The translations under genes and the position numbers were made by a program. DNA of 38,291 nt from Oscillospiraceae bacterium (GTDB taxonomy: Bacteria; Bacillota; Clostridia; Oscillospirales; Ruminococcaceae), in assembly GCA_022766825.1 (NCBI GenBank), contig JALEQE010000170.1, positions 1 through 38,291 of the forward strand, read 5' to 3'. The notes below the pieces were generated by a model. The model saw only the letters and a program-made list of their open reading frames with translations. It did no database searches and was not told where the DNA came from. Below, piece by piece: positions 5,046 to 38,291 of this stretch (within the stretch, counting starts at the first letter, position 1; each line of letters begins with the position of its first letter).

Positions 5046-5231
5046 TAGTTTTTGTACCATTTATGTAAAATTTTACAGTAAAACGAAACATTTTGCAAAC
5101 TTTGAGCGAGTATTATTATAACCGCAATTCTCCGCAATATAAAGCCGCGTATGCTTGTTTTACGCAAACACACGCGACACAACAATATACAATTTCCACA
5201 AGCGAACCTGTTTCAACAAGCACAAGTTTGT

Positions 5232-5699
5232 CTATTTTTCAGACAGAATTACAACAGCATTTGCGCCTATTCCTTTTCCCGAAAGACCCAAACCTTCCTC
5301 GGTTGTTGCCTTGACAGAAACGCGGTTTATTTCGCACCCGAATGCCGCCGCAAGATTTTCGCGCATTTTTTGTATATACGGCGCGAGTTTCGGTTTTTCA
5401 GCGATAATCGTTATATCAAGATTTCCGAGAACATAACCGCTCTCGGTCATTTTCCCGATAACCTCGCGCAAAAGTCCCATACTGTCCGCGCCCTTGTATT
5501 TCGGGTCGCTGTCGGGGAACAGATGCCCAATATCGCCCAAAGCAAGCGCACCGAGTATCGCGTCCATAAGCGCGTGCACGGCAACGTCGGCGTCCGAATG
5601 TCCGAGAAGGCCGAGTTCATACGGAATTTCAACTCCGCACAGGACAAGCCGCCTGTTCTCGGTTAGGCGGTGTACGTCATAGCCGAAACCTATTCTCAT
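5232..5699 (-). CDS. ispF: 2-C-methyl-D-erythritol 2,4-cyclodiphosphate synthase
   Basis: [12 protein letters not shown]...[33 protein letters not shown]; start placed at internal Met of the listed ORF; 4-bp overlap with ispD. Confidence 0.95.
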
Positions 5700-7553: not shown

Positions 7554-9289
7554 ACCCCCGCAACATAAACCGTAACGGTTTCGCCTTCACTTACGTTGAT
7601 TATATCGCCGACGTCTTTACTGCACTTTACCACATAGCCTTTTCTCACACCGTCAACGTGCGTTTCAACTTCTTCTATGGAATATTTTATGTTCAGAGAG
7701 GTCAGCTTTGCCACATAATCCGAACTGCTTTGTCCGTTATAATCGGGCAGTGCCACCGCGCTTGAACCTTTGCTTACCGTAACGCTTATCTGCGTTCCTT
7801 TCGGAACCATAGTACCCTCTGCGATAGATTGGTCGTACATCAGTCCCGCGCGGTGTGTCTCGGAATATTCGTATGTCGGAACGAACGTAAACAATCCCTC
7901 AAAACGTGAAACCGTACTGTCATAGCGGCGCTCGGTGAAATCCGGAACTTTAACAAGATCCTCCGGCTCGGAAACGCTTGTTTCCGAAGAAGCGGCGTCG
8001 CTTACGGATGAATTAGGCTCGGAACTGTCCGCAACTGTTTGCGAAGAAGTATCCGATGACGTTCCCGCGCCGTTTGCGACAGCGCTTGTCTGCGAAGAAA
8101 CGCCGCTTTCGGACGATGTTACAGACGGAGTTTCGGGAGTAAATACTCCGGACAAAGAAAGTGCAAGCGCCACCGCAAACAATATCAGCGTCGCACCTGC
8201 AATTATCAGCACGGAAAGAGTTTTTCTGCGCTCTTTGATCTGTTTTTTCATCCGTTTCTGTTCCTTGGGCGACATACTGTTCTGCGAATTTTTGTCAGCC
8301 GTTGTTTTAGAAGCGTTCTCATCGGATGAAAACCTGGGCGGCGCAAAAAGACTGCTTACAAAATCGCTGATATCGCGTATTCTCTGATCCTGAGAAAACG
8401 TCATACCGTGCATAATTACTTTCGATACATTTGCGGGAACATTCCTGTTCACAAGCATAGGTTCGGGCATATCCGCGATTTTGTCAGAGCCGGCGTCAAA
8501 CGGTGTTATTCCCGTCAGGACGCGATACAGCACCGCCGCAATTCCGTACACATCCGTCCAAGTGCCGTTCATTTCGTCACTGGTGTACTGTTCGGGCGCG
8601 GCATACCCGTTGTATATTTCACACGTCAGCTCGGTATTTGTGGTTCGCGCCGCGGAAATGCAGAAGCCCGTGAGCTTAAGTTTCATTTTATCCGTAACAA
8701 ATATCGTCTGTGGAGAAAGTCCGCGGTGGATTATCCCTGCGCGATGAACAAGAGAAAGCGTGGTGAACACCGGCGGGAAAAGTTCCTTAACCTGATCCCA
8801 TGTAAGACCGCCCGAAGAGTTCGCGAGGAAAGTTTTAAGCGAGATACCGTTAATGAACTCAAACACGGCATAGCAGGTGTTGTTTTCGCAGAATACATCA
8901 AGCACCGCCTGAATGTGCGCCATATCGCTGAGCTTCATAAGAGTGCGGTTCAGGTCCTCAAACTCGGACAAATTCGTCTTGTAGAGAGGACTGTTCTGCG
9001 AATTGACCGAGATAACGGTTTCGCCTTTTCTTCTCGAACAAAGCGTGTCGGGCATAAATTCCTTTATTGTAACCTTTGTTTTCGCGGCAGTATCATAACC
9101 TATGTAAACAGCTCCCTCGCCGTTGTACGACAGCAATCGCCCGACAATATAGCGATTGTTCAAAAGCGTTTTCGGCGCAAGATAGGTCGGGATATACGGG
9201 TCATCATCGTTGTAGCCGCATAGCTTGCACGGACCGTCATACGTTTTATCGTTCATACAGCCCATACAAAGTGTGGTTTCGGTCAGCAT
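7550..9289 (-). CDS. Zinc-ribbon / protein kinase-like (probable pseudokinase) / TM / two PASTA-like repeats
   Basis: CMGCMNDKTYDGPCKLCGY; kinase fold with HRD replaced by HRG (IIHRGLSPQTIF) and DFG replaced by TGF (LKLTGFCIS); TM segment; C-terminal PASTA-like repeats (VPKGTQISVTVSKGS; VSEGETVTVYVAGV). ATGA overlap with pheA. Confidence 0.85.
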   Translation of the reverse strand: MLTETTLCMGCMNDKTYDGPCKLCGYNDDDPYIPTYLAPKTLLNNRYIVGRLLSYNGEGAVYIGYDTAAKTKVTIKEFMPDTLCSRRKGETVISVNSQNSPLYKTNLSEFEDLNRTLMKLSDMAHIQAVLDVFCENNTCYAVFEFINGISLKTFLANSSGGLTWDQVKELFPPVFTTLSLVHRAGIIHRGLSPQTIFVTDKMKLKLTGFCISAARTTNTELTCEIYNGYAAPEQYTSDEMNGTWTDVYGIAAVLYRVLTGITPFDAGSDKIADMPEPMLVNRNVPANVSKVIMHGMTFSQDQRIRDISDFVSSLFAPPRFSSDENASKTTADKNSQNSMSPKEQKRMKKQIKERRKTLSVLIIAGATLILFAVALALSLSGVFTPETPSVTSSESGVSSQTSAVANGAGTSSDTSSQTVADSSEPNSSVSDAASSETSVSEPEDLVKVPDFTERRYDSTVSRFEGLFTFVPTYEYSETHRAGLMYDQSIAEGTMVPKGTQISVTVSKGSSAVALPDYNGQSSSDYVAKLTSLNIKYSIEEVETHVDGVRKGYVVKCSKDVGDIINVSEGETVTVYVAGV

Positions 9290-10029: not shown

Positions 10030-10043
10030 TTTAAGGCAACACC

Positions 10044-11395: not shown

Positions 11396-11421
11396 TCAAT
11401 AAACCACATAAACACAAGCAG

Positions 11422-11445
11422 CGGGGAGCGGTATTCCGATCCCCG
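11422..11445 (+). other. Intergenic hairpin (attenuator-like) after SBP gene
   Basis: CGGGGAGCGG-TATT-CCGATCCCCG, one internal mismatch; weak T-tract follows. Confidence 0.6.
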
Positions 11446-11452
11446 TTACTTT

Positions 11453-11717
11453 AAGGTAGCACCGCATAATTATTGTCGTGCGATTGCGCAGTCAGATTTA
11501 TAGTGCGTTCGCCTTTTGTGCGGCACGTCCTGTGCCGCTTGGGCGAACGCCTTCCGACTTCGTGTCGGCGTCAGATTGTACAATGAGGACGACGCAAGGC
11601 TGTATGCCTTACAAGGACGAATTGTGCAAGATGACGGAAAATATGCAAGCAAAGCGCGAGACGACGGCAACGTCGTCTGAGCAAAGGCGTTAGCCGTTAA
11701 TTGTGCGGTGTTGCCTT
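11453..11717. repeat. Copy 1 of a ~265-bp dispersed inverted-repeat-bounded structured element
   Basis: Ends AAGGTAGCACCGCATAATTA / TAATTGTGCGGTGTTGCCTT; ~125 bp of left part nearly identical to reverse complement of 38023-38291; nested hairpin GCGTTCGCC..GCGGCAC..GTGCCGC..GGCGAACGC. Confidence 0.85.
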
Positions 11718-14826: not shown

Positions 14827-14916
14827 TCTATAAATATGTTACAGCGGGGACAAATATGACAAGCGTAAAAAATGCCGTACACGCTTTCACGCATACGGCA
14901 TTTTCGGAATTTAGGT
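14827..14916. repeat. 90-bp direct repeat copy A (contains terminator-like hairpin)
   Basis: 88/90 identical by eye to 16102-16191. Confidence 0.9.
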
Positions 14917-15259: not shown

Positions 15260-15496
15260 ATGAGTGATATTAAAATCAGAAGGACAACGAAATATTCCGT
15301 TAAAGTAATATCCTCTGATAATTCAAGCAATGAGGTATCTCCGGTAGACGCAGAAATGGACGCAAGAGCAAAACAGGCTGTAAAATCTGCTATAGAGAAA
15401 GCTAAATTCTGCAAAAAACCTGTCGCGCACTATGATGCTGTTACCAAGCGCACTTATTTGGAGTATCCTAACGGAGAAAAGCGTTATGTCGACTAG
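15260..15496 (+). CDS. Small protein (78 aa), candidate antitoxin/partner of the downstream zeta-like kinase
   Basis: RBS gaaaggag upstream; MSDIKIRRTTKYSVKVISSDN...; stop overlaps start of the next gene by 11 bp. Confidence 0.7.
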   Translation: MSDIKIRRTTKYSVKVISSDNSSNEVSPVDAEMDARAKQAVKSAIEKAKFCKKPVAHYDAVTKRTYLEYPNGEKRYVD

Positions 15497-16037
15497 AAAA
15501 CCAATGATACTGGTGCTTGCCGGTCCTAACGGCTCAGGGAAAAGCACAATTACTCAGTACTTTGAAAAGGTCGGAGAGTATACGAATGCTGACGATGTGG
15601 TATCAGCTACGGGAATGAGCAACGAGGAAGCCGCAACTTTTGTGGATAACAAGAGATATCACGCCATTAAAATGAAACAGGACTTTACATTTGAAACAGT
15701 CTTATCTTCCCAATACAAAATGGATATTCTCAGAAAAGCAAAAAGCGAAGGATATTTCATCAAATGCATTTTCGTACTGACTATCGATCCGCTTGTCAAT
15801 GTAGCCAGAGTAGAAGCAAGAGTTGCATCCGGTGGTCACGATGTTGATAAAGAGAAGATAAAAAGCCGATACTACAAGTCGCTGGCAAATATAAAAGAAC
15901 TGATGACTTTATGTGATATTCTTCATGTTTATGACAACACGATTGAACCTGTTAGAATCATACGAAAACACAAGGAAGATGTTACTGTTTTTCCGAATGA
16001 ACTGTGGACAGAGGATATGATTTTAAATCTGCTTTAA
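15486..16037 (+). CDS. Zeta-toxin-like P-loop kinase / COG4185-type ATPase
   Basis: MSTRKPMILVLAGPNGSGKSTITQYF (Walker A), FTFETVLSS, VEARVASGGHDVDKEKIKSRYYKSLANI. Confidence 0.82.
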   Translation: MSTRKPMILVLAGPNGSGKSTITQYFEKVGEYTNADDVVSATGMSNEEAATFVDNKRYHAIKMKQDFTFETVLSSQYKMDILRKAKSEGYFIKCIFVLTIDPLVNVARVEARVASGGHDVDKEKIKSRYYKSLANIKELMTLCDILHVYDNTIEPVRIIRKHKEDVTVFPNELWTEDMILNLL

Positions 16038-16052
16038 ACGTTCCTAGTAACG

Positions 16053-16107
16053 AATTAACCGCTCCCCAAAGCCCTGAATCGGCTCGGGGAGCGGTTTTAC
16101 ATCTATA
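16053..16107. repeat. ~55-bp direct repeat copy B
   Basis: AATTAACCGCTCCCCAAAGCCCTGAATCGGCTCGGGGAGCGGTTTTACATCTATA. Confidence 0.85.
16057..16098 (+). terminator. Intrinsic terminator of the zeta-kinase-like module
   Basis: Perfect 11-bp stem AACCGCTCCCC / GGGGAGCGGTT followed by TT. Confidence 0.8.
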
Positions 16108-16191
16108 AATATATTACAGCGGGGACAAATATGACAAGCGTAAAAAATGCCGTACACGCTTTCACGCATACGGCATTTTCGGAATTTAAGT
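16102..16191. repeat. 90-bp direct repeat copy B; hairpin serves as probable terminator of the hydrogenase operon (minus strand)
   Basis: AATGCCGTA / TACGGCATT stem with T-tract on the minus strand; immediately downstream of the HydA stop at 16199. Confidence 0.85.
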
Positions 16192-36004: not shown

Positions 36005-38023
36005 ATGAAAACATTCACGGCAGATAACATCAGAAACGTCGTTTTGACAGGTCACGGCGGAAGCGGAAAAACCGCGCTTGCCGAGGCTATGCTTTTTAAA
36101 TGCGGACTTACCGATCGTATGGGAAATACGGCAGACGGCAACACGGTCAGCGATTTCGACGCGGAGGAAATCAAACGTAAAATCTCAATCAATGCCTCTA
36201 TTGCCAATATGGTATGGAATGATACCAAAATCAACGTTATCGACGCGCCCGGTCAGTTTGACTTCGCGGGCGGTATGTATGAGGGTATGAGAGCCGCCGA
36301 AAGCGTAATCGTGACTGTAAACGGCAAGGACGGCGTTTGCCCCGGCACGATTAAAGCGTACAAACTCGCCGAAAAGAACAACAAGGCGCGTATGCTCGCC
36401 GTTACCTGTATGGAAGTTGAGAACAGCGACTTTTACCGTGTGTTCACGCAGATGAAAACGATATTCGGTCCGTCTGTTTGCCCGATTGTCGTACCGTATG
36501 ACAAGCACGGATATGTTGAGGCTTACATAAATCTGCTTACAATGAAAGCGTATAAATACGACACGAAAGGCGTTCCGACGGAAGTTGAAATGCCCGCGTC
36601 CGAAAACCGTATTGCGGGACTTCGCGCGGCGATGGCGGAGGCTGTCGCGGAAACAAATGAGGAATTTATGGATAAATTCTTCAACGAGGAGGAGTTCACG
36701 CAGGAAGAACTTGTCAAAGGTATTCACGACGGTATAGCGAGCGGTTCGATAACACCCGTTGTATGTTGCGCAAATGATACTTTGTCGGGCGTTGATATGC
36801 TGCTTGACGCGGTTACGAAAATGTTGCCGTCACCGAACGAGCGCAAACTCGAAAAAATCAACGGCGAGGCTGTCGCTTATGATGAAAACAAGCCGTTTAA
36901 GGGTGTTGTATTCAAGACGGTCGCTGACCCGTTTGTCGGCAAGGTAAGCTATATCAAGGTTGTTCAGGGCAAACTGACTGCGAAAAGCGTTCCCGTTTCC
37001 ACAAGCGGAGCGGAACTGCGTTTCGGTAAGCTTGTAACCGTAATCGGAAAGAAACAGGAGGATATCGCGGAAGTAGCGGCGGGCGATATCTGCGCCGTAA
37101 CAAAGTTGGACGCGAACACGGGTGACACGCTCTGCGACCCTGCGGACTTGTCGGCTCTCGAACCTATGGAATTTCCGAAAGCGAATTATTTCCGCGCCGT
37201 TAAACTTATGGGCGGCGGCGACGAGGGAAAACTCTCGGCGGCTATCAAGCGTTTATTGGAAGAGGACAAAACGCTTGATTATGTGCATAATCACGAAACG
37301 CACGAACGTATTCTCGGTGGTCTGGGCGAACAGCACCTTGACGTTACGGCGGTGAAACTCAAAGCGAAATTCGGACTTGACGTGGAGCTTACCGCGCCGA
37401 AAGTCGCGTATCGCGAGGCTATTAAGAAGAAAGTCACCATTGAAAGCAAATACAAGAAACAATCGGGCGGTCACGGACAGTACGGCCACGTTAAAATCGA
37501 GTTTGAGCCTTATGACGGCGAGGAATTGAAATTCGAGGAGAAGATTTTCGGCGGTTCCGTTCCTAAGAACTACTTCCCCGCGATTGAAAAGGGCCTGCAG
37601 GAATGTTGCGAAAAAGGTTCGCTGGGCGGTTTCCCCGTTGTACGTCTGAAAGCTACTTTACTTGACGGTAGTTATCACCCCGTTGACAGCTCCGAAATGG
37701 CGTTCAAAACTGCGGCGTCTATGGCGTTCAGGGATTGTATGAAGATTGCCGAGCCTTATCTTCTTGAACCGATACAAAGTTTCAGTATAATCGTTCCCGA
37801 TGACAAGCAGGGCGATGTTATGAGCGTTATTTCGAAAAAGCGCGGTTCCGTTCTCGGAATGAACAGTTTCGGTGATGGCACAACCGAGCTTATCGCCGAA
37901 GCCCCCGAGGCGGAAATGCAGGATTTTGCGCCCGTTCTCCGTCAGATTACGCAGGGTTTGGGCGAGTTCACGGCGCAGTTCGCGAGATATGAGGCTCTCC
38001 CCGCAGGTACGGAAATAAAGTAA
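36005..38023 (+). CDS. EF-G-like translational GTPase paralogue (EF-G2-type), with non-canonical G3/G4/G5 motifs
   Basis: GHGGSGKTALAEAMLF (G1), DAPGQFDF (G3), AVTCMEVENSDFYRV where NKMD is expected (G4); C-terminal EF-G domains IV/V present. Confidence 0.9.
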   Translation: MKTFTADNIRNVVLTGHGGSGKTALAEAMLFKCGLTDRMGNTADGNTVSDFDAEEIKRKISINASIANMVWNDTKINVIDAPGQFDFAGGMYEGMRAAESVIVTVNGKDGVCPGTIKAYKLAEKNNKARMLAVTCMEVENSDFYRVFTQMKTIFGPSVCPIVVPYDKHGYVEAYINLLTMKAYKYDTKGVPTEVEMPASENRIAGLRAAMAEAVAETNEEFMDKFFNEEEFTQEELVKGIHDGIASGSITPVVCCANDTLSGVDMLLDAVTKMLPSPNERKLEKINGEAVAYDENKPFKGVVFKTVADPFVGKVSYIKVVQGKLTAKSVPVSTSGAELRFGKLVTVIGKKQEDIAEVAAGDICAVTKLDANTGDTLCDPADLSALEPMEFPKANYFRAVKLMGGGDEGKLSAAIKRLLEEDKTLDYVHNHETHERILGGLGEQHLDVTAVKLKAKFGLDVELTAPKVAYREAIKKKVTIESKYKKQSGGHGQYGHVKIEFEPYDGEELKFEEKIFGGSVPKNYFPAIEKGLQECCEKGSLGGFPVVRLKATLLDGSYHPVDSSEMAFKTAASMAFRDCMKIAEPYLLEPIQSFSIIVPDDKQGDVMSVISKKRGSVLGMNSFGDGTTELIAEAPEAEMQDFAPVLRQITQGLGEFTAQFARYEALPAGTEIK

Positions 38024-38291
38024 AGGCAACACCGCACAATTAACGGCTTACGCCTTTGCCGCACGCTTGCTTGCATATTTTCCGTTATCTTGCCCAAATT
38101 TCGCTTGACCGCATTATCCGCCTTCGGCGGAAAACGCTGCGTCAGCCCGTCTGCGCTCAATTTGTACAATCTGCCGCCGACACGAAGTCGGAAGGCGTTC
38201 GCCCAAGCGGCACAGGACGTGCCGCACAAAAGGCGAACGCACTATAATTCTGACTGCGCAATCGCACGACAATAATTATGCGGTGTAGCCT
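38023..38291. repeat. Copy 2 of the ~265-bp dispersed element (inverted relative to copy 1; reaches window end)
   Basis: Starts AAGGCAACACCGCACAATTAACGGC; right part is reverse complement of the left part of copy 1; ends ...CAATAATTATGCGGTGTAGCCT. Confidence 0.85.

Follow-up and report, generated by a model that had tools for sequence, protein, structure and literature searches.

A modular, structured repeat of gut Clostridia, very probably an IS5-type MITE, inserted in an ABC transporter operon of an Oscillospiraceae bacterium

The BOX elements of Streptococcus pneumoniae (boxA-boxB-boxC) are modular, high-copy MITEs whose terminal repeats are paired and whose inner modules are optional and fold independently, and it has been proposed that they are mobilised via an IS with similar ends (PMC3049150). 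The IS5 family has a described target preference, YTAR (PMC10359306). The influence of such short repeats on their surroundings has been addressed in several systems: Correia/NEMIS and ERIC sequences can sit in mRNAs and influence their processing (PMC10969869), while QMITE1 and QMITE2 of Coxiella burnetii, MITEs of 150-400 bp present in about 50 copies, are a source of small RNAs, and QMITE1 carries sigma-70 promoters (PMC5896051).

Compared with BOX by description, and with membership not claimed, the element reported here would appear to work most like pneumococcal BOX without being BOX. It is likewise modular and present in high copy, with paired ends related to those of an IS and optional inner modules that fold on themselves. 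It differs in its hosts and, as far as the Rfam search shows, in its sequence. Whereas BOX mainly carries tandem boxB, several different modules here occupy several slots, and they turn up again elsewhere in the scaffold, reversed in orientation, and in repeats that are unrelated; the scaffold spans many genera of one class, with covariation. The element shares with the IS5 family and its MITEs a 4-bp YTAR-like duplication and ends common to an IS with an IS5_4 transposase (NF033581), yet, unlike IS5-family MITEs, it has a conserved structured interior and TIR classes that vary among genera around one core. It resembles Correia/NEMIS and ERIC as a short palindromic MITE-like repeat but has other ends; Correia elements duplicate TA, and neither Correia nor ERIC is known to have such module slots. 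QMITE1 and QMITE2 are comparable in size class and copy number but have different duplications, and sigma-70-type promoters were not found here. In broad kind, the element is an IS5-type MITE with a variant architecture. At the gathering threshold, Rfam returned nothing but a tRNA in the window (the whole 38,291-nucleotide contig analysed), and relaxing to E values up to 5 added merely microRNA and lncRNA matches far below their cut-offs. In the searched library, no relevant paper turned up on structured repeats or on MITEs of gut Clostridia, and none contained the terminal sequence in such a context.

The two copies given in the preliminary description, together with their stems, were both found in the window, and their limits (11453-11717 and 38023-38291) could be refined (Table 1). 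Copy 1 is 261 bp long (GGTAGCACC...GGTGTTGCC) and lies between the genes for an ABC substrate-binding protein and a permease, which an ATPase gene follows. Copy 2 measures 266 bp, and the contig stops one base beyond it. As first noted, neither contains a transposase ORF, and the middle is not conserved, copy 1 being composed of M1, M2d and M4 and copy 2 of M1 and M2b. In copy 1, M1 is flanked by direct repeats GTCAGATT (11491-11498 and 11570-11577); it is missing from the module-free scaffolds L352 and L343. Two other repeats were observed in the window. At 10031-10043, TTAAGGCAACACC stands immediately 5′ of a terminator-like hairpin and resembles a truncated left end of the MITE family (a 13-bp match), or is a chance match. 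Separately, 90-bp direct repeats that are 98% identical (14827-14916 and 16102-16191), near which lie a hairpin and another repeat of 43 bp, bracket a gene (15432-16037) matching Zeta_toxin (PF06414), which suggests the duplicated border of an inserted segment.

Table 1. Features of the two copies and of the operon site, in window coordinates
Feature	Position	Strand	Basis or remark
Native intercistronic hairpin, outside the MITE	about 11416-11451	+	Conserved in orthologous operons without the MITE
Left target-site duplication TTAA	11451-11454	.	Family statistics; TTTAAA empty sites at the matching position
Copy 1, complete IS5-type MITE, forward (better-folding) strand on +	11455-11715	+	RNA fold -132.4 kcal/mol, z -10.0
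Left terminal inverted repeat GGTAGCACCGCATAATTA	11455-11472	+	Pairs with right end in fold
Module M1, about 70 nt	11499-11569	+	Nested hairpin 11505-11550 plus CCGAC/GTCGG hairpin 11554-11568
Apical hairpin AAGGC/GCCTT (slot 2, short form M2d)	11596-11610	+	Alignment of copies, fold
Module M4, side hairpin GACGAC/GTCGTC	11660-11677	+	Alignment of copies, fold
Right terminal inverted repeat TAATTGTGCGGTGTTGCC	11698-11715	+	Sequence, genome-wide matches
Right target-site duplication TTAA	11716-11719	.	Family statistics
TAAA flank of copy 2	38021-38024	.	Includes stop codon of EF-G-like gene 36005-38023; opposite flank past contig end
Copy 2, modules M1 and M2b (CCGCC/GGCGG)	38025-38290	-	Sequence, alignment, fold

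The flanks of the element are consistent with transposition. Among 130 distinct insertions with GG..CC ends, 89 have identical 4-bp flanks, against a mean of 41 with shuffled partners, while flank lengths of 2, 3, 5 and 6 bp show no excess of identity over the same 130 insertions. Non-palindromic 4-bp left flanks are repeated directly in 25 cases and inverted in none. The 89 duplications comprise TTAA (64), TTAG (7), CTAA (2) and otherwise AT-rich variants, including TTTA, TTAT and ATAA, and are close to the YTAR preference of IS5. A related IS was located by searching the genus with Pfam PF01609: a complete copy of 1384 bp, which includes a run of N, lies in a genome of the same genus (G002, locus L236) with TTAA on either side. 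Its ends are identical over 16 bp, both starting GGCAACACCGCACAAA, and 15 bp are common to the commonest right end of the MITE. Its transposase passes the NCBIfam model NF033581 (IS5_4) at 284-288 bits, the cut-off being 140. Exact TIRs adjoin all ten transposase loci of the IS5_4 type, whereas the 20 other PF01609 loci examined have none beside them (Fisher p 3e-8). Most of these IS5_4-type copies are broken or partial, and L236 is the sole complete IS recovered with both ends.

These observations strongly support the MITE-like behaviour that the preliminary description had put forward, through the TIRs, the 4-bp duplications, the copy number and the empty sites, and the element is very probably a non-autonomous transposable element of the IS5 family. 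An IS5-family transposase would act in trans on the MITE ends, and movement would proceed by cut-and-paste into TTAA-like intergenic sites. Against this stand three points. The source genome, whose assembly reaches 87% completeness and is interrupted at repeats, yielded neither an IS5_4 transposase nor an autonomous IS; the transposase turns up in far fewer genomes of the class sample than the element does (1 versus 21 of 288); and the case rests on one complete IS containing a run of N, with transposition deduced from sequence. A coding role was rejected, no frame being open in most of the 48 scaffolds. A different route would be that of REP/BIME-type repeats, tagged palindromes of 20-40 bp that are moved via single-stranded DNA by a REP-associated tyrosine transposase (RAYT). 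Such a route would explain a fold confined to one strand, and the element shares with REP/BIME its palindromic character, intergenic location, high copy number and a possible single-strand constraint, one strand folding better; module M2a, moreover, inserts before CG with no evident duplication. The element as a whole nevertheless has 4-bp target duplications and IS5-like ends, unlike REP/BIME, and this route is highly improbable for it, although the mechanism could apply to the inner modules.

The family is abundant and widespread, well beyond the two copies first noted. Contig 13 of a draft genome (1.83 Mb, 202 contigs, about 87% complete) makes up the window. Copy 1 has 56 BLASTN matches in this genome, the nested hairpin of M1 occurs 34 times, and the right terminal repeat matches 108 times with up to 3 mismatches, compared with 0 for a reversed control pattern. 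At least 53 complete members were extracted, 46 of them full-size. Members range from 46 to 360 bp, and their ends pair. The smallest are 46-bp hairpins made of two terminal repeats and nothing else (L339, L340, L346 and L354), two of the four with TTAA duplications. The true copy number is probably higher, since many contigs stop within a copy; indeed, contigs of G000 such as C13, C10, C177 and C200 terminate inside copies, so that the family breaks the assembly. Matches were found in 30 of 43 genomes of the genus, and the exact right-end 20-mer is present in many Clostridia records, among them the isolate Agathobaculum butyriciproducens DSM 100391. A covariance model placed the scaffold in 21 of 288 genomes of the class Clostridia, representing 15 of 179 genera, while the matches of a second model, run on 398 phylum-wide genomes, fall solely in G000 and G077. 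Partial matches covering 18-75% of copy 1 also occur in unannotated faecal bacteriophage scaffolds (MT835572, MT835489, MT836531, MT835885 and MT835480); phages may carry the element, or these phage records may hold bacterial DNA. Since the draft assembly is metagenome-like and many of its contigs stop within copies, an assembly or chance artefact might be suspected. This has virtually no credence and is refuted by the copies in many independent genomes, including that of the A. butyriciproducens isolate, and by the absence of control matches.

Alignment of the 46 full-size copies resolves a 172-nt scaffold with optional hairpin modules in fixed slots. These modules, of at least six kinds, are M1 (70 nt), at least three alternatives in the apical slot (M2a, M2b, M2c, or the short form), M3, M4 and M5/M6, and they make up 24 architectures among the 46 copies. 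Most module pairs that are able to co-occur show all four combinations of presence and absence, several of them also across end types A and B. The swapping of stem modules suspected from two copies was thus right, given this number of architectures and the four-gamete combinations. One hairpin serves two slots in two orientations, M3 being the reverse complement of M2c. In 13 of 43 genomes of the genus, M2a is also present at different slots of related elements, within other repeats and alone; its scaffold slots precede CG, and no clear duplication is evident there. Loci where M2a (GGTCTGTCGGTCAGCCCCTCTGTCACTTCGTGACACCTCCCC...GGGGGAGACC) is dispersed alone or within another repeat are L387, L388, L391, L392, L397, L400 and L403. 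An unrelated palindromic repeat with ends near TACTAATAACC bears M2a-like or M3-like modules at its tip (L231, about 5090-5400; L145, about 7880-8000), and modules are therefore common to unrelated repeat families. It appears likely that modules are acquired at fixed slots, where they would branch from the main stem and leave it intact, and that recombination among the many near-identical scaffold segments would reshuffle them.

The scaffold has a fold of its own. RNA folding gives copy 1 a z-score of -10.0 and copy 2 one of -5.7, while the module-free scaffold L343 forms a single long hairpin from end to end (-94.5 kcal/mol, z -10.8), on which modules become side arms in copies 1 and 2. Across 48 scaffolds of one TIR class, 93.9% of pair cells are standard and 37 of 68 pairs show two-sided changes; the covariation score is 0.317 compared with 0.154 after shuffling, a value reached in none of 500 shuffles. 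When class-level sequences are added, 49 of the 68 pairs covary (0 of 500 shuffles). Compensatory changes, whose lack in the stems would have weighed against the structure first proposed, therefore abound by covariance analysis. The fold belongs to one strand. In all 48 scaffolds the better fold is that of the forward strand, with a mean of -91.9 kcal/mol versus -62.2 for the complement, and this also applies at 12 of 12 class-level loci, one of which is from the source genome. When pairs are defined on the complement, G-T is found in 275 cells and A-C in 31; the other TIR classes give 54 and 7. A constraint on double-stranded DNA or on a cruciform would treat G-T and A-C alike. A simple C-to-T strand bias was considered as the source of the G-T excess and is insufficient, because pairs alternating between A-T and G-T vary too.

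This excess is unevenly distributed among the variants. The G-T to A-C ratio is 22:21 in single-copy variants and 21:4 in variants common to at least 3 copies (Fisher p 0.009, the counts being less independent than this value implies, as the copies are related). With the excess confined to shared variants, either the one-strand fold is kept in spreading lineages or purging is slow. Recent changes in resident copies look neutral, and resident copies would decay after insertion. A cut-and-paste DNA element needs no one-strand fold in itself, which is a further point against the MITE reading as it stands; the fold would most likely be kept since it aids propagation or renders transcripts of the element harmless.

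The same core is found within at least three TIR classes, some class-level matches having ends GGAATCACTGATTAA... or GTAAGYRCTGATCAAATA... around it, and all families keep it to a length of 169-174 nt. When the standard TIR class is compared with the others, the terminal repeats have an identity of 0.57 and the core one of 0.67, a comparison biased by the covariance model having picked those sequences partly by their core. The comparison does show one core set within several kinds of ends. One may then ask whether the one-strand core is the functional unit, a mobile structured RNA for which the TIRs are replaceable docking ends used by different transposases. This proposal is compatible with the MITE reading and goes further. 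The several TIR classes, the constancy of length and the strand asymmetry in both folding and G-T counts speak for it, but it has to contend with a negative promoter scan and a transcription that is only conjectured, with insertions lacking orientation bias, with the ascertainment that partly accounts for the TIR divergence, and with a G-T excess limited to shared variants, which leaves function in resident copies unsupported. We regard it as conceivable and rather doubtful. Equally tentative, and somewhat unlikely, is its fuller form, in which the family would be a mobile structured RNA, about 172 nt long, that extends across the class Clostridia, its conserved one-strand core carried by different transposon ends and acting as a chassis for independently mobile, reshuffled hairpin modules.

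The ABC operon itself offers a direct comparison of occupied and empty sites, made here between species. In 17 of 19 orthologous gene pairs from the genus, the intergenic space is free of terminal repeats. Five of these empty operons have GTTGATTTAAA at the insertion position, the reading there being CCCCGTTGATTTAAA in place of the window's CCCCGTTACTTTAA plus the element. The empty sites that the preliminary description proposed to look for are thus present at the species level. Genome G014 (L312) holds a distinct and much smaller mini-element of 55-60 bp in the same TTAA, behind the operon's native hairpin, and this is an independent insertion. In another orthologue (L296, genome G036), other repeats lie at a similar place between the genes, namely TTTAAGTAGCTAGAGAATAGTTC-like units arrayed in tandem together with further palindromes. 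A GGGGAGCGG..CCCC-type hairpin upstream of the insertion point is kept in most orthologues and in the window, which indicates that the operon owns a native intercistronic stem-loop and that the MITE landed directly 3′ of it.

The position and fold of copy 1 invite the view that it is a host regulatory RNA, a co-transcribed hairpin that is cleaved by RNase III or attenuates transcription, favours the binding protein over the permease and is kept for that purpose. Copy 1 does sit between both genes, its better-folding strand is the mRNA strand, its fold reaches z -10, and Correia and ERIC are known from other bacteria to influence how mRNAs are processed or how abundant they are (PMC10969869). 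On the other hand, nearly all orthologous operons lack the element and most have their own hairpin, and A-C and G-T changes accrue equally in resident copies. A scan of the element for promoters and terminators found no such pattern. Relative to neighbouring genes, as delimited with a simple ORF caller, insertions elsewhere are equally often antisense (22 sense, 26 antisense, 20 convergent and 19 divergent), with none of the orientation bias that an mRNA element would predict. A host regulatory RNA is consequently improbable, and the processing, attenuation or promoter role proposed in the preliminary description is unsupported as a host function. A regulatory role at the ABC operon is unlikely to be a selected function, although a polar or processing effect of copy 1 on the mRNA is possible. 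The TIRs, the duplications, the related IS and the empty sites together point to an IS5-type MITE rather than a selected part of operon regulation, and the best explanation is that its insertion is incidental to the ABC operon.

Because insertions take no orientation to genes, a role in host mRNA is not the obvious reason for which the fold is kept; the retention of the core across many gut Clostridia suggests that the fold is important for the spread of the element. Three features are of real interest: modules used in combination, a one-strand fold that extends across the class, and a single core surrounded by several kinds of ends. MITEs are usually viewed as two ends around expendable filler, whereas the interior of this element is conserved and covarying, a one-strand fold of near-fixed length set in different ends. 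The element family explains why assemblies of such genomes break, and it is one that Rfam lacks. It also makes testable whether a bacterial MITE needs RNA or single-strand structure for its spread, in a system that offers dozens of module combinations within one genome.
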